Below are positions 13,043 to 29,476 of a stretch of 37,180 nucleotides of DNA, in pieces (positions within the stretch are counted from its first letter, which is position 1; every line of letters starts with the position of its first letter). Origin of the DNA: a virus; the IMG/VR virus record IMGVR_UViG_3300009408_000020, positions 1 through 37,180 of that record; one strand, written 5' to 3'. The notes below the pieces were generated by a model. The model had not been told where the DNA came from, made no database searches, and worked only from the letters and a program-made list of their open reading frames with translations. The position numbers and the translations under genes were made by a program.

Positions 13043-16000
13043 CTATCCAAATACTTTTGTAGGAAATACTACATCTAATCCTAAGTTAGGAGTATGAAAT
13101 ATATTTCGTTCAAAGATATTAGCATCAAATATAGTGGAACCTCCCCCGATATTTAGCAAATCATTTAACATAATTGTGAACATTGCATTTACAGGGTTAT
13201 TACGTAAACTTCTGAACATAATTCTCTGAATTCTTGATGTAAATGATATAAAACTCGTTACACCCGTTTGCTCTAGAAATCTAAACTCTCTAGGTATATT
13301 TACCTTATAGTCAATGAAGTTCTCTAAAGCTTCTTGTGCTGCAACATCACTCAATGCCTTCAACTCATCTGTAGAAGGTTTTCTCTTCTTGTCTTTAACA
13401 AAATTCTTAACCTTAACATCTATATTATTCTCATAGTCAACAACTTTAGCAACAACATCTACTGCCTGTACTGCTGCAGAACCTACTGCTACCATTGAAG
13501 TACCTGGCGTACCTAAATACTCTTGTATATAAGCACTAATGTCATCTCGCTCTTTAATATCTTTGATATGTTCACCCATCTCTTTTAAAGATGCTGCAAT
13601 GGCTTGAGGGCTTGCTGCTTTTGTTTTTGACCCAAGTTTGTTAGCAACTGCTATTAATAGGTCTTCACCATTAACACCAAACTTACTAAACTTCATTATT
13701 GACTTACCAGCTATATTTAAAGACCCTTTATCATCTTTAAATAGGTAGTTAAGTAATGAAGAAACATCATTATGTAACCCAGATAATGTATGTTCATTTT
13801 TACTAGATAACTCAATCGCTAGTGACTGTATAAACCCATTAAAGTGAGCTGCTGCTAATGGATGGTTTTTAATATCATTCTCTAGCTTATTGATACGTTT
13901 TACTAATGAGGGTGTACTCTTAATTCTATTTTGAAACTCTGCTTGAAGTAGATTCTCCCTAATAGTAGTTAAGTCTGCCATATCATTCATAACACGCTTA
14001 GTTTTCGTGTAAATAACATTCACAGGAACATTACGACTCATAAGGTAAGCTACATTAGATATTGCATCTCTAGCTATCTTAGTTGGTGCTGTAATTACCC
14101 AGTGAATCTTCTGTAACAATACGGATTTCTTAAGAATACTAAAGGCTTTATTTAGAGTTGTACCAGTTTCTCCAATTTGGATTTCCTTATACCCCTCAAC
14201 AAAATCTTTCATATCTTTACGAACCAAAGTAACTGAGTCACCAAAATCTCCTGCATCTGACTTAGCATGAGCTTCTGTGTATCTACCTTGTATTTCTTTA
14301 GGTAAATCAGCAAGTGTTACATCTTTAGGTAGTTTAATGTACCAAAGGTGTTCACCTTTCTTGATAGCTTTAACTATGTCTGCAGGCTTAGTCTTACTAT
14401 CATAAGTAAACTTATCTACAATCTCCTCACGGATTGACTGTGTTTCTAATAGCATCATTCTATGAGTATATGCTTTGACTAAACTATATACTGGGTTTCT
14501 TACATAACCAAGAGTATCTAACTCTTTATTCGATAAGATAAGTCTAGCTGGTGCATCAGTATTAGTGACTGCCTTATTAGCTAGTGGGTCAAATTGCCCT
14601 GGCAGTGATAAATTAATATTTGGGTCCATCTTGAGATTTACACCTGCACCAGATTGAAATGATATATCTCCAGCATCTCTATAAATGATACCTGCCTCAG
14701 TCTTAGTAGGTTTTCTAAGTACTTTCCAACCTAATCCGCTAGACATAGCTTTATTAATATTACCAAGAGTAACAACTCTAGTTTCATTATTATTCTTAAA
14801 TACCATGTGATTAAGATTACCTGTATGCTTATCTAATTGATAAGATATAGTTGCATCTAGCTCATTATCTAAAGACTTACTAGCAACAGAGATTTCATAA
14901 AGCTTAGTAAACATATCTGTATGCTTAGAGCTAGAGTTAATCTTAGTTAGTAAGCCATTGATATTAGGTACTTTTTCCATTGCATATAAAGCAGATAACT
15001 TACTTACTTTGTCAGATATACTCGCTGGCAGGTTCAGGTCTGTCTTGTACCCGTGCTTAGGTACTACTTTATCAACATAGTATCCAGCAAGGTCTTTGGC
15101 AATAGCTTTAGCATTTCTCAATTGACCAGCAGTTAACTTAGGGTCACTCTCTAAAGATGCTATCGCATCTGCAATAGTTACATTCCCTTTCAGTATATCA
15201 GTTAGCATACTTGGTTCCAGATTAAATAGTGGAGTTTCACTAAGTAATGCATGTAAACCTTTGATGTCATCTTCAGTATATACCTTAGTAATACCACGCT
15301 GTAATTCATTAATTTCTTTCTGCTCAAAAGAAGCTTTACGTTCCTCAGCATGCAAAGATGCAGTAATGATTTTATTCATTGCTTTATAGTCAAAGTTATC
15401 ATCTAAATTCATATAGATTTTTAACTTACTAATCAATGTATTCTCATCCCACTGACGAGCTATACCATTAAAAGTATCTTTATAGATGCGTGATTTCTTC
15501 ATCATTTTTTTATGATAATCTTTACCATTTAATTTATTAGCTGTAACATCAATAGATAAGTCTAGAGTACTCTGTATAAGTTTAGCCATCTTAGCATCTA
15601 CATTAATAAATGCATCTGATATTGGTTTAGTAATCTTATCTACCCCCTCAGCTTTTTTATCTGAAGGAGAATAAGGTTTATAGTCGTTATTCAGGACATC
15701 AACGAAACCCAATTCAATCTCTGGACTTTGTTTTTTCTCTGAGTACTTAGCATCATGTAATGAACCAAGCAAGTTACCGTAAACAGTATCAAACTCATTA
15801 GGAGATAATCCTAACATTTGCATAAATGCAGCTTTGAATTTATTCCAAATACGAGTACCTACAGGCACTTGCTTAAGTTGTGCAACAAACTTAGGATTAG
15901 TAAGTCCAAGAGTTATAAACTCGTGTAATCGTTCTTTGTTGCCCATACCCTCTAATTTGTCAATTACTGCTGTAAGCTCTGGGTTTAACTTACCTTTTTG

Positions 16001-19000
16001 CTTGTAAGCATATCTGTATAGATTAGTTATTTCTGCAGCAAACTCACTATCAGTTTCAATAGCTTGAGCTGTTGCTGCGTGCACTACCTCATGTGCTATT
16101 TGTTCACTAGTATGATTAGAACCAAAGTAAATAGTATTACTACCTAGGTCATATTTAGCTTTAACACCATTATATTTTTCATCAATCACAATATTAACAT
16201 CAGGATTTCTAGATAAGGCTACATAAGACAATTTAGCTAAGTTAGTATCTTTCATTCTACCAATAGCTGCTTTAACACGCTGCATAGTTTGTTCTTGATA
16301 CCCTTTACTAGGTGTATCTAATGGTTCTACTTTAGTGTCTTCCTTACTTACTTTATTATCCTTACCTCTATAAGTACTAACCTTCTCAGCAATACTTGGT
16401 TTAACACCAAATGATGTATCAATAACAGTATTACCAATAGCTTGTTTCTTAGCTGCAATGATTTCTTTTAACTCAAGCTCAGTCTTAGCTATGTGAGCAT
16501 CTACTTTAGCTCGTAGTGCCTTATCTTGGGTCATAGAACGTGCATACTTAAGTTCTCTAAGAGCAGCTTCTACAAAGTCATATTCTTTATTAACTTCAAG
16601 GATTTGTTTCTTATATTCTTCTTCCATAGCAATAGCAAAGTCAACTGTTGAACCAACACTATCATGATTAAGCATTAAGCCATTGGTGTAATCTTTGAAT
16701 TCTGGTCTAGCATAAACAGCTTCCATTGACTTAACCAGTATTGCAGCATCTGTCATGTGTTGTAATAGTACTTTAATTGAGTTTAAGTTAGGAAAGTGTT
16801 TCTTAATAGTTGTAAGAGTCTTATCTCCAGTTTCAACTACGGCTTCATGCCATTTCTCAATAGTAGCACCAAACTCTTCACGAGCATTCTTGTAACCCTC
16901 ATCAGTATCCATACCTTCAGTATCTAATGATGCTAGAGTGGGTACAATTCTAATTTGGTCATATAAACTACCCTCAGAAAATCTAATCTCTTCTAGTAGG
17001 TTATGCATATCTTCAAGTGCTTTAGATTGGTCGTTAAATAGTTTAGCTCCTGTTGACTCCTCAACAATACTTACTAGTTTATCTGCTACACCGTTCTTCT
17101 GTGCTAGTTTAGCAATTAGCTGTATACGAAGCTCATCACCCTCAGGTAAGACAGCTTTGCTATCAATACCCAGTATCTCACGCATTAGAGGTACTTTATT
17201 ACTGTCAATTATCTTACTAGTTATTTCTTTACTAATCTCAAGTATATTATTATATTTAGCTTGACCATAAATAAACTTAGTAAATGGTAGTTTCATAAGG
17301 TCACGGGGACCATTAATAACACCTATATTAGTATCAATTATTTTATTCATCATAGCAAATACTTCATTGTCTGCAGAACCTAATGCATCTAGTGAATTAG
17401 GCTTTTTATTCCCTTGCTTATCAAGTTCTTTAATAAGTACATGTGTAGATAGTTGATACATATCTGAAAATTCTTCAGGTACCTCAGAAGTCTTAGAGTC
17501 ATAAACTCTTTTACCTAATACTAAGTCTGCTACTACCTCTGCTGCTGCAGGAGTTCTACCACTAGCTTGAAGTACTGTAATAAGTGCCCCAGAAGCTGTA
17601 GCATCTGGTTTAACTAAGAAATGTGTATTAACTTCACCCTTATCAAAACCTTTACGGATGTCACTAATCGCATTGATATAGTTCGCTACATCCCAAGCAG
17701 ATTTAGCACCTCTAATTGGTTCAGTACCTTTCTCCATATCTTTACCAATACCAAGAACTAGACCCAACTTATTAGCAGATTTATCACTGAATGCTTCAAC
17801 GTATTCATTTAGTTTAATACCATCTTTAGTATTACTTTTACCGAGAATTTCATCCATAGATAAACCAGTTTCATCCATTAGGTATCCAACCATATAATCA
17901 ATTTCTTTTTCATTAAGTGTTTGTACCTCTGGTGAACCAAGAATAGGACGAGCAAACGCTGCATCAGTCTGATAGTTCAATGTCTGCTCAAATACATGTA
18001 GTCTGTTTTGTACAGCAGTCTGGTATGTATAGTGTAAGTTTGAATCAATCAATGTATCAAAGTCATCAAATAGTCTAACTATTGGTAGGACCTTAGATAT
18101 AGACTTACCAAACTGTTGGTTAAGCCCAACCATATCAGTCGTATACGTTTCATAAAGGTTAGTAGTATCTAGTGTACCAAATACAAATTTACTAGCCTTA
18201 CTACCTGATGCATACTTAGCTATACCCATTAGGTAATCATTAGTGGTTTGATAAGTACTATCTTCTTTAATCATACCTTTTAACTCAGTAAGAGCTTCAG
18301 CAAAGAAACCTTGTATTTTAAGACTAGATTTTTGAGCCTGTGTAATGACTGCACGAGTTTCTTCTGTAGTTTCAATGTCTTGTATAGCCTCATTGATTTC
18401 TTGAGCTTCAGAGCTAGGGATAGAGCTATTAGAAGGTAGTACCAGTTTACTTACAGCTTTCAACTTACTAAGAGAAGTTTCAAGGTCTTCATTGAACTCA
18501 GTAATAGACTCATAAAAGCCATTATCAACTGATATATTATTTTCATCAACTTCAACAGTTGGGAATAGTGAATTAAGTGTTACAGTTTTAATACCAGTTA
18601 CTAATTTAGTAGCTGTAGCTTTCTTAGAGTGTTCACTATACATATCAGGGGAACCATCACTCTTATGGAAGTGTCTATTAATTATAGCTCCATTCTCATT
18701 AATACTAAGTAGACCACGTTTTTCTAACATGGCTAAAGCTTGCTCACCAACTTTAATCTCTTGCTCAATTGCAAGTTTAACCCCCTCAGGGCTTTTAGGT
18801 ATAAGTCTGTAACCTCTTGACTTAAGTATATCTCTACCAATAGTTCTCGCCATATTTGAATATGAAGTATTATACTGATGTTTACCACCAGTTATATCAG
18901 TCATATCATTACCACTATCAGTAATTTGTGCACGCTCATCTGTAGACAGTTTATATTTTAATACTAAATCCTCTTCTGATTTTTGTACTGACATTAAGTG

Positions 19001-19318
19001 GTTAATTGCTATTGCAATAGGTCGAGCCTCACCTTCAGCTAAATCACCAATACGTTTACCAAATGGGTTCTTTTTAATATAAGTTCTAAGTGTGCGTGTC
19101 TTATCTCGTACTGAACGGAAACCAGATAGTAAGCCTTCTGAACCAAATAGATTATCCCATTGGTTTGCTACTTCAGTCTTATTACCTGTAAGGAGTGTAT
19201 GTAACATGCTGTCCTTAACCAGTGAGGCCTCATATCTAGTCTGCTTAACCTCTTTTTTACTGTTAAGTACTTTGACATCTGGTGTTATTTTTATAATTTG
19301 TACATCGTTACAAGCCAT
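13043..19318 (-). CDS. Virion-encapsidated single-subunit RNA polymerase with zinc metallopeptidase motif (N4 gp50-like)
   Basis: Injected with phage DNA, this enzyme would transcribe early genes. T7/N4-type motifs appear in order: QNRLHV with R439, motif A DATASG with D572, motif B R672-x3-K676-x7-Y684-G685, and motif C NHDSVGS with D886. N4 vRNAP has its counterparts at R424, D559, K670/Y678 and D951. After the polymerase part, AHEVVHAA places a zinc metallopeptidase HExxH at 1076-1080, with a possible third ligand E1133 in RLHEF. About 950 further residues follow, including a hydrophobic stretch near 1740 (KSVLLQKIHWVITAPTK). At 2091 aa it is much shorter than N4 gp50 (about 3500). It is the last gene of the leftward late operon, as in N4. 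The ribosome binding site GAAGGA overlaps the end of the previous gene. Confidence 0.9.
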   Translation of the reverse strand: MACNDVQIIKITPDVKVLNSKKEVKQTRYEASLVKDSMLHTLLTGNKTEVANQWDNLFGSEGLLSGFRSVRDKTRTLRTYIKKNPFGKRIGDLAEGEARPIAIAINHLMSVQKSEEDLVLKYKLSTDERAQITDSGNDMTDITGGKHQYNTSYSNMARTIGRDILKSRGYRLIPKSPEGVKLAIEQEIKVGEQALAMLEKRGLLSINENGAIINRHFHKSDGSPDMYSEHSKKATATKLVTGIKTVTLNSLFPTVEVDENNISVDNGFYESITEFNEDLETSLSKLKAVSKLVLPSNSSIPSSEAQEINEAIQDIETTEETRAVITQAQKSSLKIQGFFAEALTELKGMIKEDSTYQTTNDYLMGIAKYASGSKASKFVFGTLDTTNLYETYTTDMVGLNQQFGKSISKVLPIVRLFDDFDTLIDSNLHYTYQTAVQNRLHVFEQTLNYQTDAAFARPILGSPEVQTLNEKEIDYMVGYLMDETGLSMDEILGKSNTKDGIKLNEYVEAFSDKSANKLGLVLGIGKDMEKGTEPIRGAKSAWDVANYINAISDIRKGFDKGEVNTHFLVKPDATASGALITVLQASGRTPAAAEVVADLVLGKRVYDSKTSEVPEEFSDMYQLSTHVLIKELDKQGNKKPNSLDALGSADNEVFAMMNKIIDTNIGVINGPRDLMKLPFTKFIYGQAKYNNILEISKEITSKIIDSNKVPLMREILGIDSKAVLPEGDELRIQLIAKLAQKNGVADKLVSIVEESTGAKLFNDQSKALEDMHNLLEEIRFSEGSLYDQIRIVPTLASLDTEGMDTDEGYKNAREEFGATIEKWHEAVVETGDKTLTTIKKHFPNLNSIKVLLQHMTDAAILVKSMEAVYARPEFKDYTNGLMLNHDSVGSTVDFAIAMEEEYKKQILEVNKEYDFVEAALRELKYARSMTQDKALRAKVDAHIAKTELELKEIIAAKKQAIGNTVIDTSFGVKPSIAEKVSTYRGKDNKVSKEDTKVEPLDTPSKGYQEQTMQRVKAAIGRMKDTNLAKLSYVALSRNPDVNIVIDEKYNGVKAKYDLGSNTIYFGSNHTSEQIAHEVVHAATAQAIETDSEFAAEITNLYRYAYKQKGKLNPELTAVIDKLEGMGNKERLHEFITLGLTNPKFVAQLKQVPVGTRIWNKFKAAFMQMLGLSPNEFDTVYGNLLGSLHDAKYSEKKQSPEIELGFVDVLNNDYKPYSPSDKKAEGVDKITKPISDAFINVDAKMAKLIQSTLDLSIDVTANKLNGKDYHKKMMKKSRIYKDTFNGIARQWDENTLISKLKIYMNLDDNFDYKAMNKIITASLHAEERKASFEQKEINELQRGITKVYTEDDIKGLHALLSETPLFNLEPSMLTDILKGNVTIADAIASLESDPKLTAGQLRNAKAIAKDLAGYYVDKVVPKHGYKTDLNLPASISDKVSKLSALYAMEKVPNINGLLTKINSSSKHTDMFTKLYEISVASKSLDNELDATISYQLDKHTGNLNHMVFKNNNETRVVTLGNINKAMSSGLGWKVLRKPTKTEAGIIYRDAGDISFQSGAGVNLKMDPNINLSLPGQFDPLANKAVTNTDAPARLILSNKELDTLGYVRNPVYSLVKAYTHRMMLLETQSIREEIVDKFTYDSKTKPADIVKAIKKGEHLWYIKLPKDVTLADLPKEIQGRYTEAHAKSDAGDFGDSVTLVRKDMKDFVEGYKEIQIGETGTTLNKAFSILKKSVLLQKIHWVITAPTKIARDAISNVAYLMSRNVPVNVIYTKTKRVMNDMADLTTIRENLLQAEFQNRIKSTPSLVKRINKLENDIKNHPLAAAHFNGFIQSLAIELSSKNEHTLSGLHNDVSSLLNYLFKDDKGSLNIAGKSIMKFSKFGVNGEDLLIAVANKLGSKTKAASPQAIAASLKEMGEHIKDIKERDDISAYIQEYLGTPGTSMVAVGSAAVQAVDVVAKVVDYENNIDVKVKNFVKDKKRKPSTDELKALSDVAAQEALENFIDYKVNIPREFRFLEQTGVTSFISFTSRIQRIMFRSLRNNPVNAMFTIMLNDLLNIGGGSTIFDANIFERNIFHTPNLGLDVVFPTKVFG

Positions 19319-24980: not shown

Positions 24981-25005
24981 ATTATACCCAATCTTTACTA
25001 GATTG
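24981..25005 (-). promoter_or_regulatory. Hairpin and perfect -10 box upstream of the 154-aa virion gene
   Basis: On the minus strand CAATCT and AGATTG (25005-25000 and 24994-24989) form a 6-pair stem around a 5-nt loop, at the end of the 800-aa gene. A perfect TATAAT lies just downstream at 24986-24981, with a weak -35 match GGTACA at 17-nt spacing. This may be an internal late promoter for the three ejection proteins and the vRNAP, or a weak terminator followed by restart. Confidence 0.4.
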
Positions 25006-27400
25006 TACCTAACCGTAATTGATTGCTTATATAGTCATCTTTATATATATTGTAGTCGAATAATGCATTAAACTCATACTGCATTGCACCTTTAGCCTGA
25101 TAATAGAATGCATCAACACTTCTAAGGTAGGCTTCTGGTATCTCTTTATTTACCAAGTCAACTACACCATATGTGTCTAATACTCCACCCATAACGAGTA
25201 AATCCTCTGCTGCAGTGAATGATTGTAATCTTTGGTCTGCTTGTTGTGAAAATTGTTCAGACTGTGCTTGTACTTTATCCATTTCTACTTGGGTATATAC
25301 TGCGTAAGCTTGAGTACCCATAACAACCGCACCTGCGACTCCACCGATAATTGAAGTAGCTGATGCTGTAGTTACAGCAGTTGTTAATTGTGATGCTGAT
25401 AGAAATTCTCCTTCAGCATAGGATACACCAGTATATATTACTGTAGCAATAATGATTGCAGCTCCAACAGCTTTCAACCAGTCAGGTGCATTAGACTCCA
25501 TCAGGAGTTTCATGGCGTACCCAACGGCTAGACCTATGGCGAGATTAACTATTAATGCCTGCAATATGGTTCCAATACTCGCACCAGTACCAACAGTAAT
25601 TACGGTTACAACGACAGTTACAATGATTGCAATTATTTGTAAGACTAAGCTAAATGCTGAAGTTTTATACCACTTTAAATATGTGATAGATGCAGCATAT
25701 ATACTGAGTTTTAAGGTATATGGGAATATATTAGTTTGCTCCTGGAAATCAAGACTATCAATAAAAAAGAATGCAAGAGGTAGTTCAACACCACCAACAA
25801 GATTTTGACCTACTGAACCAACTTGTGTGCCAAGTTGCCCAGTTCTGTCTATAAAGGTAAGACCAGTAACAGATGTCATTATATATTCAACATAGTACTC
25901 TTCAGCCTCCTGCTTACGCATAACTAAGTCACCAACACTATTAGTAGCTGTAGTGATTAGTTTTTGGTAAGTACCGACAGGACCAATTGAACCAGCTACT
26001 ACAGAACGAGTTTGTGTCTTCCAACCTAATGCTGTATTGTATGGCAGCTCCTTTATTGCAGCACTGTAACCACCAAGAGGTTTACCAGTTACCGCGTCTG
26101 TACCTTGGTCATTATATAAACCAGAGTCTTCAAATAATTGAGAGAAGGTTTCGTATACTAGCTTACTTATCTCTGGTGTGTTGTCAGATAAGTTAATACT
26201 AAAATGTATAAATGCATCAGCAACATTACCTATGTCAGGACTATCAGATATAGCGTCCGTCATTTCATCAAGGTCGACACCAACAGTTTTAAGTAGCTCC
26301 TGTGTTTCAAGATATGCCACACTAGTTTTATCAGCATTAGTATTAATGAAATTATTTCTCAGTACTGCAACAGGCATAAACTCAGAAGTACCATATACAG
26401 TAGCTGCGTCATCTAATACAGGGTAAGTACCAGTGCCAATTTTATAGAACCAATAGTACCAATCGTTATTACTAACTTCATAGTATTTTGCAATAACATA
26501 TAAGTCTGGTACATAAGCAACTACACTAATTATACCACTAGAAACTACTACAGTAGTTACTGATGTCGTAGTAGCTGATACTGTAGAGTCAACTTCTGAG
26601 CCAATAGGTATACTAGTAGCAATTGTTGATAGTGTAGTAGTTACATCACTTATAAGACCAGATACATCACCAGTGGTAATAGTCTGCTCTGTGATTACTT
26701 CGTTACGATTATCTGTAGTTGCATCAATGTTAGTAATAGTAACTGTAGTTGTAGTAATCACATCAGTAGTAACTATTTCATTTAACTGATAACTAACATC
26801 ATACTGGTCAGTTGTGTAGTTATAATCAATAGATGTAACATAATTATATACACCGTTAATTAGTAATTCATTAGTAGAAGGTTTAAACCCATTACTATTT
26901 TGCAACTGCCAAGCAACCCACGAATCTTTAGTTGGTTCATCTTTACTAGCAACAATTATTGTACTACTTATACCTAAATCAGTATCAAGAGCCGTCTTTG
27001 TAAGTGATAAAGACATTTTAGTGGTTCTGATATTAGTAGAGGGTAGACCTCTATAGTATGTATCTTTACCATAAGTATAATATTTCATGTACTTAGCACG
27101 CATCTCAGAGGCAACCTGGACGTAATGTTTGATTACACTACTGTTAGGGTCCTTTTGGTGATTTAGGGCTACTCCTACCATTGCTGCATTATATCCATCT
27201 ATATCATTAATCACACGTTGAGTTATTACTTCAGTACTAATAATCTCTTCGTCCTTAATGCCAAGGAAATTAAATATCGCTTCAAGTATAGGGTGACCAA
27301 TATACTCCCATGCATATTCTGTAACTACTACTACTGGAAATAATACGATTGTCAGAGCTGTACTAATAACATCAACGATTGTATTTACAATTCCTCCCAT
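24998..27400 (-). CDS. Large virion protein with hydrophobic segments, 800 aa (N4 gp54 position)
   Basis: The first 35 residues include an amphipathic-to-hydrophobic segment (STALTIVLFPVVVVTEYAWE). The middle, about 205-300, is extremely rich in Thr, Ser and Val (VTTDVITTTTVTITN and similar), probably beta-structured or extended. The region about 580-690 contains three or four membrane-type helices (LQIIAIIVTVVVTVITV, ALIVNLAIGLAVGYAM, VGAAIIIATVIYTGV). The last 100 residues are helical and soluble. This combination suggests a virion protein that enters or crosses the cell envelope during DNA ejection. No catalytic motif is seen. It starts 2 nt after the stop of the 171-aa gene. Confidence 0.65.
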   Translation of the reverse strand: MGGIVNTIVDVISTALTIVLFPVVVVTEYAWEYIGHPILEAIFNFLGIKDEEIISTEVITQRVINDIDGYNAAMVGVALNHQKDPNSSVIKHYVQVASEMRAKYMKYYTYGKDTYYRGLPSTNIRTTKMSLSLTKTALDTDLGISSTIIVASKDEPTKDSWVAWQLQNSNGFKPSTNELLINGVYNYVTSIDYNYTTDQYDVSYQLNEIVTTDVITTTTVTITNIDATTDNRNEVITEQTITTGDVSGLISDVTTTLSTIATSIPIGSEVDSTVSATTTSVTTVVVSSGIISVVAYVPDLYVIAKYYEVSNNDWYYWFYKIGTGTYPVLDDAATVYGTSEFMPVAVLRNNFINTNADKTSVAYLETQELLKTVGVDLDEMTDAISDSPDIGNVADAFIHFSINLSDNTPEISKLVYETFSQLFEDSGLYNDQGTDAVTGKPLGGYSAAIKELPYNTALGWKTQTRSVVAGSIGPVGTYQKLITTATNSVGDLVMRKQEAEEYYVEYIMTSVTGLTFIDRTGQLGTQVGSVGQNLVGGVELPLAFFFIDSLDFQEQTNIFPYTLKLSIYAASITYLKWYKTSAFSLVLQIIAIIVTVVVTVITVGTGASIGTILQALIVNLAIGLAVGYAMKLLMESNAPDWLKAVGAAIIIATVIYTGVSYAEGEFLSASQLTTAVTTASATSIIGGVAGAVVMGTQAYAVYTQVEMDKVQAQSEQFSQQADQRLQSFTAAEDLLVMGGVLDTYGVVDLVNKEIPEAYLRSVDAFYYQAKGAMQYEFNALFDYNIYKDDYISNQLRLGTI

Positions 27401-27402
27401 AC

Positions 27403-27918
27403 TTACCTCACTTTTTTTAGTTTAAATACCTTAACCATATTAATAAATGTTCTAGGTCTATGTTGGTTATGTGCTATGACGACATAATTGATTTTACCAC
27501 TATTATACAGTCTTAGACTTTTACCAGTAATCAGTGATTTAAACTGTAGCATGTTTCTACCATGTGGGTACATTATAATAGCTATATACTTAGATAAGTT
27601 AACTGCTAGAAGTAGTATTAGTAGAGCCAGAATGTCTTTAGGTATAGATAGACTACTTGCTACAAGCTTACCAGGGAACAGCTCATCAAATCTTAAATAC
27701 ATGAAACCTATTCTTACACCATTGTGGTTAATCGCATAAGCTAAACCTTGTGCTATAGATTCTTCCATATTAGCAGTGTATTCTACTACATCTTCTAGTA
27801 CCTCACCAACAGCTTTAAGGGCTAACTGGATAGTAACTAGGTCATTAGGTATATCTGCAAGTGTACAAGGTACTTTTGCATAGGTGCCTCTAATGCTTGT
27901 GTAGGATACAGCTTCCAT
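27403..27918 (-). CDS. 171-aa protein with one hydrophobic helix, coupled to ACP and KAS; possible acyltransferase
   Basis: I do not recognise this protein firmly. Residues about 70-80 (GVRIGFMYLRFDEL) could be a strand pair, followed by a very hydrophobic helix at about 91-108 (PKDILALLILLLAVNL), a strand IAIIMYPHG, a helix NMLQFKSLI and the strands SLRLYNSGKINYVVI, ending in a basic tail. This alternation weakly fits the distal half of a GNAT-type acyltransferase, which would suit an ACP/KAS neighbour; a membrane anchor is the alternative. Its start lies 29 nt inside the KAS gene with a very strong TAGGAGG site, so it is tightly coupled and well translated. Confidence 0.6.
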   Translation of the reverse strand: MEAVSYTSIRGTYAKVPCTLADIPNDLVTIQLALKAVGEVLEDVVEYTANMEESIAQGLAYAINHNGVRIGFMYLRFDELFPGKLVASSLSIPKDILALLILLLAVNLSKYIAIIMYPHGRNMLQFKSLITGKSLRLYNSGKINYVVIAHNQHRPRTFINMVKVFKLKKVR

Positions 27919-28756
27919 AGAAACCTCCTAAACCACTAGCAACACATAGAGTTGAACCAAGTACTTCAGGGTCATCAAGGGTCATACATATTTCAAGTAG
28001 TGCACTAGCTCCCTGTGTATGCCCAGTTGTATCTTTATAGTATACAGCTTTCCTATCTTTAACTAACTCTTCTTCAGCTTGGTTATTACTAGGTGTTCTA
28101 GTACCATGAGGTTTAACATTATCTATGGCTTTATCAGTGTCAACATGAGCATAAGCTTTACCTGTTGTTTGGAAAGGGTTCCTATCATAACTGTAGTGCC
28201 ATTTAGTATCAGTTACTTCATTACTAGTTGGTTCTAATGTTAGAGTAACCATAGCAAATGCATCACCGCAAGTAAGAGGTATTCTATGCTCCTTAAATAT
28301 TCTAAGAGTATTGAAACTAGTCCTCTCTTCAGCGATAATAATTACTTCTTCACATACACCTTCTTTAAGTAAACGCTCTGCTTCGTATAAAGCAAACATT
28401 GAGCTTGCACATGTGTTAGAATTTATAGATGCATAAACAACTAGTTCATTATTTTCCATCTCACCTACCCAGCGGTGTAAGCTATATGCAGTACTTTCTT
28501 TTACTAAACGCCCAGAAGGTTGGTGATTAACTGAACCAATATATCTGGGGTTCACATTTGTTACATCGCGGCTTTCTGATTGGTGTCCACTGAAACCACC
28601 TGTGAATAGTACAGCAGTAGTCTTAGTAAGTTTTGGTGCAGGAATACGAGCTATAAACTCTGGAGTGGTGTAACCTTCTCGTGAAAGACCTTCAATACCA
28701 ATATAGTCATTATTATCTAGTGTAGGTACTAGATACTCACAGTTTTTTATAAACAT
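27890..28756 (-). CDS. Compact beta-ketoacyl synthase (KAS, thiolase fold)
   Basis: All three catalytic positions of condensing enzymes are present: the nucleophile C116 in INSNTCASSM (compare TACATS of KAS I/II), H217 in VKPHGTRTPSNN (compare AHGTSTPLND), and H246 in KDTTGHTQGAS (compare KSMTGHLLGA) with the conserved Lys at 241. GDAFAMVTLTLE and the closing SGLGGFYGSCIL match the usual GEGA and FGFGG elements. With 288 residues it is far shorter than KAS I/II (about 410), lacking part of the N-terminal and dimer-capping regions. It starts inside the end of the ACP gene without a clear ribosome binding site, so it is translationally coupled to its probable substrate carrier. Catalytic competence is likely; the product is unknown. 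Confidence 0.85.
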   Translation of the reverse strand: MFIKNCEYLVPTLDNNDYIGIEGLSREGYTTPEFIARIPAPKLTKTTAVLFTGGFSGHQSESRDVTNVNPRYIGSVNHQPSGRLVKESTAYSLHRWVGEMENNELVVYASINSNTCASSMFALYEAERLLKEGVCEEVIIIAEERTSFNTLRIFKEHRIPLTCGDAFAMVTLTLEPTSNEVTDTKWHYSYDRNPFQTTGKAYAHVDTDKAIDNVKPHGTRTPSNNQAEEELVKDRKAVYYKDTTGHTQGASALLEICMTLDDPEVLGSTLCVASGLGGFYGSCILHKH

Positions 28757-28995
28757 TTGTCTACCAACTCACGGATAGTAAATGTGTTCCAGTCGATTGA
28801 TTTGAATGGGTCAACATCTGCAGGTACATCAGCAAATATCTCATACTTAGTATCCATATCTAAAAATAGAACAGTAGTACCAAAGCTATCTAAATCAGCA
28901 TCAAGTAAAGTACTATCTAGGGTAACTCTTGTACCTTTCTCTTCTCTAATAACTATATTAATATCAGCTAGTATGCCTTGTTCCATTTGGGTCAT
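28747..28995 (-). CDS. Acyl carrier protein-like, 82 aa
   Basis: The helical acidic protein has the carrier motif LLDADLDSFGTTVLFLDMDT, where S37 in LDSF stands at the place of the phosphopantetheine-bearing Ser of DSL in bacterial ACP. TKYEIF corresponds to the EEEFGI region, and TFTIRELVDKC to the TVGDLVDYI end. It would need a phosphopantetheinyl transferase, presumably from the host. The KAS gene begins within its last codons, and the virion protein gene upstream ends one base before its start. AGGAATATAAC precedes the ATG. Its place inside the virion operon implies late expression. Confidence 0.85.
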   Translation of the reverse strand: MTQMEQGILADINIVIREEKGTRVTLDSTLLDADLDSFGTTVLFLDMDTKYEIFADVPADVDPFKSIDWNTFTIRELVDKCL

Positions 28996-28996
28996 G

Positions 28997-29476
28997 TTAT
29001 ATTCCTAGTGGGTTAGTTGCTACAGTGATACCTAACTGGTCAAGAGCTGACTTAAGTGTACTATCAATGCTATCTACTTTAATTGAGTCTGGGATAGACT
29101 GTGCATCTTTTGCAACAGAATAAGCAACTGACCAACTGTCTAGTAACTGTTTAAGTAATTTGTTTTTAGCATCATCATCAAACCCTTGAGTTTGTCTGGT
29201 AATAAGTACTACTTTAGCAGCTTCACTATCAGTTTGTTTCTCAGCAATTTGTTGTTGAAGTACAAATCTCATAGACTCAGCAACTGCTGATTGCATTGCA
29301 CCTAGATATACAGTAGAGTAATCAGGACCTTTAATACGCCCTAACTTATACTGTGCATCAATATGCTTATTAATAGTTTCCATCATATCATCAAAGACGC
29401 CATTACCTGTTACAACATTGTTTGTATCTGCTGTGACATTCTGAGTAAAATTTGTAAACGGTATTGCAGTAGCCAT
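28997..29476 (-). CDS. Virion structural protein, 159 aa
   Basis: A helical protein with the pattern of a small virion protein found after the capsid genes of several podoviruses: MMETINKHIDAQYKLGRIKG, then YSTVYLGAMQSAVAESMRFV and LQQQIAEKQTDSEAAK. The start MATAIPFTNFTQNVT and the C-terminus DQLGITVATNPLGI are less conserved in character. It probably sits at the portal-tail connector or inside the head; no enzyme motif is visible. AAAAAGGATTAAT precedes the ATG. Confidence 0.65.
   Translation of the reverse strand: MATAIPFTNFTQNVTADTNNVVTGNGVFDDMMETINKHIDAQYKLGRIKGPDYSTVYLGAMQSAVAESMRFVLQQQIAEKQTDSEAAKVVLITRQTQGFDDDAKNKLLKQLLDSWSVAYSVAKDAQSIPDSIKVDSIDSTLKSALDQLGITVATNPLGI

Follow-up and report, generated by a model that had tools for sequence, protein, structure and literature searches.

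How do the ejection proteins of podophages, soluble while packed in the capsid, come to form channels in membranes? The window analysed here, the whole 37,180-nucleotide stretch of IMG/VR virus record IMGVR_UViG_3300009408_000020, raises a question of its own: what are genes for an acyl carrier protein (ACP), a ketoacyl synthase (KAS) and a third, 171-aa protein doing among virion genes, directly before the gene of a presumed ejection protein? If the three act together on their neighbour, an acylation module beside the ejection gene would be a chemical answer to the first question, and one that can be checked by mass spectrometry; cultured Alteromonas phages with the ACP and the acyltransferase-fold (GNAT) core of such a module exist.

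We confirmed the three open reading frames on the minus strand of the window, overlapping one another inside a virion operon as the sequence-only reading had described. The ACP and KAS genes share 10 bases, the KAS and 171-aa genes share 29, and a gap of 2 bases separates the 171-aa gene from the 800-aa gene. In the order of transcription of this late operon, with the virion RNA polymerase last, the features are:

28997..29476, minus strand: virion structural protein, N4 gp54-like, 159 aa, phrog_2050 (1.8e-32), directly upstream of the ACP gene
28747..28995, minus strand: ACP, 82 aa, Ser37 in LDSF (...DADLDSFGTT...), pI 4.05
27890..28756, minus strand: compact FabF-like KAS, 288 aa, Cys116-His217-His246
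27403..27918, minus strand: GNAT-fold acyltransferase candidate, 171 aa, pI 9.6, conserved Asp95 and His119
24998..27400, minus strand: N4 gp53-like protein, 800 aa, phrog_2220, putative ejection protein and putative target of acylation
13043..19318, minus strand: virion RNA polymerase, 2091 aa, phrog_2206 (6.6e-26)

The strong ribosome binding site claimed for the third gene was also seen, an AGGAGG-type site (TTTAGGAGGTTTCT-ATG). Upstream of the ACP gene come the phrog_2050 virion protein, then phrog_2130, the major head protein (phrog_1357), the tape measure and the portal (phrog_1216), and downstream of the trio lie the gp53-like protein and, further on, the virion RNA polymerase. We assigned the window to the N4-like group because of this polymerase (phrog_2206). 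Its length is far below the ~3500 aa of the N4 enzyme and near the 2083 aa reported for Alteromonas phage R22Y (PMC11705849). In phage N4 itself the gp54 and gp53 genes are directly adjacent, with no gene in between; the trio is thus an insert at a conserved junction.

The first gene had been read as an ACP with Ser37 in an LDSF motif. Indeed, Ser37 is present, and a DS motif was found in 104 of 104 distinct relatives, counted with an ACP HMM on the genes neighbouring KAS. The window protein carries 17 acidic residues, and pI ranges from 4.0 to 4.8 across the family, the GNATs being mostly basic. Although the window ACP has no Pfam or NCBIfam match, 8 of 35 family members match Pfam PP-binding (PF00550; best 1.1e-5), and so does the ACP homologue of Alteromonas phage PT11-V19 (5e-4). 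We class it as an ACP by its conserved DS(L/F) serine in a small acidic protein. A search for a phage-encoded PPTase of the ACPS family found none in 12 phage records, with the control positive in 10 of 14 genomes.

The second gene encodes a divergent, compact FabF-like enzyme with weak Pfam and NCBIfam matches (2.5e-8), while P22-like relatives match FabF at 2.5e-31. We call the KAS FabF-like and not FabF because the scores lie far under the NCBIfam FabF cut-off of 493.75 bits (15.7 for the window KAS, 108.8 for the relative L076). It shares with FabF/KAS II the Cys-His-His triad and the HGTGT and GHTxGAS motifs, and its relatives show FabF homology, but at 288 aa in N4-like and ~370 aa in P22-like phages it is shorter than the 407-413 aa of FabF models. 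The catalytic set that had been called complete is intact in every relative covering these positions, with Cys116 aligned in 73 of 73, His217 in 74 of 74 and His246 in 74 of 74. Matches of 24-28% in Listeria and Enterococcus 'phage' records were set aside, as they look like host contigs.

For the third gene we turned to structure. An AlphaFold2 model of the 171-aa protein, built from 9 sequences (pLDDT 81.8, pTM 0.76), has the GNAT topology b1-a1-a2-b2-b3-b4-a3-b5-a4-b6(-b7), and a Foldseek search against the PDB, the kind of structure-based search proposed by the sequence-only reading, returned 27 matches at E<=1e-3, all of them GNATs (probability 1.00, with modest TM-scores of 0.40-0.54) and SbzI among them. 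Asp95 is conserved in 10 of 11 and His119 in 11 of 11 family members, the cultured phages being among those that keep His119. The pyrophosphate-binding Q/RxxGxG/A CoA motif was found in 0 of 9 members, so we class the protein as a GNAT fold and not as a CoA-dependent acetyltransferase. In P22-like loci this position, after ACP-KAS and ahead of the first of the presumed ejection genes, is taken by a 143-aa protein. Its AlphaFold2 model (pLDDT 93.6, pTM 0.87) also has GNAT topology, with b1 not seen; the best 50 of its 69 Foldseek matches at E<=1e-3 are acetyl- or acyltransferases, and the Q/RxxGxG/A motif at the b4-a3 junction was found in no member of the family. Neither the 171-aa nor the 143-aa protein has informative sequence relatives in Pfam, PHROG or the PDB, and both are placed by fold prediction. 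At E<=1 the 171-aa protein of the window had no Pfam match of any kind, and none of nine members matched the Pfam HlyC family. Since HHalign detected no similarity between the 171-aa and 143-aa families, we claim no common descent for them. By predicted fold, then, the third gene is an acyltransferase-fold (GNAT) protein occurring in two families without detectable mutual sequence similarity, where the earlier reading had seen no acyltransferase of known type. The label 'membrane-associated' was dropped: the hydrophobic stretch at residues 97-115 maps to helix a3 of the predicted fold and on towards strand b5, and several homologues show no such hydrophobicity there.

To see how far this gene order extends, a KAS profile search was used, which placed relatives on at least 429 viral contigs, and 80 loci were kept. 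Three arrangements of ACP-KAS were seen. In the N4-like arrangement, ACP and KAS are followed by a GNAT of ~165 aa and a gp53-like protein of ~800 aa. The P22-like arrangement runs from a gp10-like gene and an ~80-aa gene through ACP, a KAS of ~370 aa and the ~143-aa protein to putative ejection genes; in locus L001 one of these has matches among internal virion proteins that contain an endolysin domain. The third lies outside the virion region, where a helicase-like gene is followed by ACP-KAS and then by small genes; no GNAT was found near these early-region pairs, most of whose contigs are fragments. One early-region locus, L072 (IMGVR_UViG_3300032267_001036), has a FabZ/FabA-type dehydratase directly after KAS (L072:10761-11192; Pfam FabA 5.8e-30).

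The recurrence of the trio, which the sequence-only reading had proposed to survey, was borne out: the order ACP, KAS, third gene, ejection gene recurs in relatives, and the triad is not randomly lost. With the 143-aa GNAT as bait, 71 of 75 loci had KAS directly upstream (66 of them also with ACP, the remaining 5 cut off upstream), and the other four had none. Two of these four, L120 and L121, still have a decayed remnant of KAS just ahead of an intact GNAT gene, so KAS has been lost there, apparently together with ACP. The remnant spans L120:1700-1792 and the matching positions of L121, and the position of the active-site His is no longer His. On the contig shared by L037 and L170 (IMGVR_UViG_3300032234_000483), the early region carries ACP-KAS, and ~20 kb away the GNAT occupies the ejection slot, after gp10-like and 84-aa genes. 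Two cultured Alteromonas phages, R22Y and PT11-V19, carry ACP, GNAT and a gp53-like gene, and a search of their whole records detected no KAS; their GNAT is homologous to that of the window (24%). At L010:9745-12965, ACP and KAS come directly before a 726-aa presumed ejection protein starting MGGG, with no GNAT detectable between. Because the GNAT and ejection genes stay paired where KAS alone, or ACP together with KAS, is absent or has moved, we regard this pair as the most persistent part of the locus and ACP and KAS as its supply line. Median dN/dS was 0.067 for KAS, 0.084 for ACP and 0.075 for the 143-aa GNAT, a set from which the 171-aa family was excluded as it offered no sequence pairs close enough. 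A gene order that recurs in both N4-like and P22-like contigs under such strong purifying selection is not a matter of chance. A scan of bacterial genomes with the 143-aa GNAT gave no relatives, and therefore no prophage host was found; a viral contig scan with the single PT11-V19 GNAT protein likewise gave none.

The 800-aa protein resembles the gp53-like proteins of LIT1, LUZ7 and others and, from its position, is presumed to be an ejection protein. It starts MGGIVNTIVDVIS and has hydrophobic residues at 1-30 and 578-662. Across loci, the gene immediately following the GNAT encodes a protein that begins M-G or M-S in 42 of 50 cases. Residue 2 is Gly in 24 of 50 against 10 of 264 control genes from the same loci, and Ser in 18 of 50 against 28 of 264, counts whose Fisher values are descriptive only because the sequences are not phylogenetically independent. 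In an enlarged set residue 2 is G or S in 85 of 94, with the consensus M(G/S)AVV followed by a helix that is hydrophobic and probably also amphipathic. Both groups have this pattern, as in MSAVVKFFSDV (L003) and MSAVVEKVKDV (L066). However, the canonical Schitoviridae gp53 of N4, LIT1, VBP47, D505 and EcP1 also begins MG with neither ACP nor GNAT next door, and Gly2 may thus have a different purpose. The gp53-like proteins of N4 (L088), LIT1 (L090), D505 (L092) and EcP1 (L093) start MGLFS(S/K/R), which resembles the eukaryotic N-myristoylation pattern.

From the observed gene identities and folds, conserved catalytic residues, linkage, purifying selection and N-terminal pattern we infer an acyl group, its transfer, its target and the residue that receives it, and we give an even chance to the trio being a phage-encoded acyl-transfer module that acts on a virion protein. 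A host PPTase would turn the phage ACP into its holo form by phosphopantetheinylation, and the phage KAS would condense or extend an acyl chain on it. Host FabG, FabZ and FabI would reduce the chain, or the beta-keto group would stay. The GNAT would then move the acyl group from the ACP onto the neighbouring ejection protein, possibly at its N-terminus, and acylation would be expected to affect membrane insertion of that protein. The tag on these DNA-delivery proteins may perhaps be a fatty chain. A co-encoded ACP and the missing CoA motif are suggestive, though only that, of acyl-ACP as the donor, and the gene position points to the ejection protein next door as the target, ahead of envelope lipids; for the acceptor itself, the N-terminus, a lysine and another molecule are all kept under consideration. 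An acyl group made by ACP and KAS and transferred by the third gene had been suggested before, and the GNAT models, the conserved and intact trio and the lack of any SDR-type (FabG-like) reductase in 14 records (control positive in 13 of 14) support it.

Known systems offer partial parallels. Eukaryotic N-myristoyltransferase and N-terminal acetyltransferases favour Gly or another small residue at the N-terminus once Met has been removed. They have a GNAT-type fold, and the presumed phage target starts M(G/S)AVV, but they use acyl-CoA and no sequence relation to the phage GNATs was found. A far-reaching form of our proposal is that many uncultivated podophages use their own ACP to build a group that is then attached to the N-terminus of an ejection protein. 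This would be a counterpart of N-myristoylation that helps to insert the DNA-delivery machine into the host envelope and has arisen or been recruited more than once; we hold it to be possible but doubtful. ApxIC, an acyltransferase of GNAT-like structure, lacks CoA-contacting elements, and the RtxC proteins characterized so far draw on acyl-ACP (PMC8339906), while CdiC lipidates an effector of contact-dependent inhibition that binds another cell's envelope (PMC8510554). SbzI, a GNAT that receives its acyl group from a carrier protein, is a further precedent for the proposed transfer (PMC6331615). With HlyC, ApxIC and CdiC the phage protein would share small size, an acyl group taken from ACP and a gene beside a target that acts on the envelope of another cell (PMC8339906, PMC8510554); it differs from them in having no Pfam HlyC match, its own ACP and usually its own KAS, and an internal virion protein as its presumed target.

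Published reports have read such genes differently. The ACP of R22Y, which stands in the same ACP-GNAT-gp53 arrangement, is presented in the available part of that report as an auxiliary gene serving the fatty-acid metabolism of the host, and the adjacent GNAT goes unmentioned there (PMC11705849), and the acpP, fabF and fabG genes of roseobacter prophages are taken in the same way (PMC8224337), in contrast to the virion acylation proposed here. On that account the phage ACP and KAS would boost or alter host fatty-acid synthesis, for membrane fluidity or lipid supply, and their place among virion genes would be incidental; the early-region ACP-KAS pairs and the FabZ adjoining KAS in L072 fit it. 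We nevertheless consider it unlikely, as it leaves unexplained the overlapping GNAT and the ejection gene, the common slot in N4-like and P22-like phages, and the ACP and GNAT without KAS in R22Y and PT11-V19, and neither the SDR reductase (14 records) nor the PPTase (12 records) was found. The earlier suggestion of a local change of the host membrane is less favoured, since no complete fatty-acid pathway was seen and the GNAT-ejection pair outlasts KAS or ACP and KAS together.

The position of the GNAT gene also invites a structural role, in which its product would help to assemble or scaffold the ejection proteins without catalysing a reaction and the ACP would be its structural partner. P22 gene 14 and T7 gene 13, whose products have been proposed in such a role, hold the same position before the ejection genes; T7 gp13 is labelled a probable scaffold in Pfam, and the P22 gp14 record says head morphogenesis. 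The Cobavirus GNAT has already been linked by position to T7 gp13 and to virion morphogenesis (PMC6775973), and loss of the CoA motif could equal loss of catalysis. ORFS of Vibrio phage VpV262 at the ejection slot is annotated as a GNAT (PF00583). T7 gp13, P22 gp14 and VpV262 ORFS/SIO1 pc40, small proteins whose genes come, as here, just before those for ejection or internal virion proteins, have no neighbouring ACP or KAS, and T7 gp13 retains an RxxGxA motif, unlike the GNATs of the phage module. A scaffold would leave the fully conserved KAS triad and the ACP serine in every member unexplained, and Asp and His are conserved in the 171-aa family, so we think it less probable still. Least probable to us is that the product of the module is a small acylated compound, such as an N-acyl amino acid or amine, which acts on the host or membrane, and that no protein is modified. 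SbzI is a GNAT shown to take an acyl group from a carrier protein (PMC6331615), FeeM, cited in that paper, is another GNAT making small molecules from a carrier-bound acyl group, and natural-product enzymes, AmcF for one, are among the relatives of the KAS; against this, the GNAT is fixed beside an ejection gene whose product shares an N-terminal pattern, and it stays at the ejection slot where ACP-KAS moved or was lost.

A literature search that left most subscription papers and preprints outside its reach turned up no account of ACP, KAS and GNAT genes as a module beside ejection genes, and in the main text of a large survey of N4-like viruses the words acyl, ketoacyl and fabF do not occur (PMC10654107). 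If the acyl-transfer reading is true, phage-encoded ACPs would move from auxiliary metabolism to virion maturation, and small proteins in the same slot, such as T7 gp13 and P22 gp14, would gain a possible enzymatic role. Among the early-region loci, a conserved protein of ~100 aa follows KAS in L021, L029, L037, L042, L064 and others, and its C-terminus looks helix-turn-helix-like by eye.
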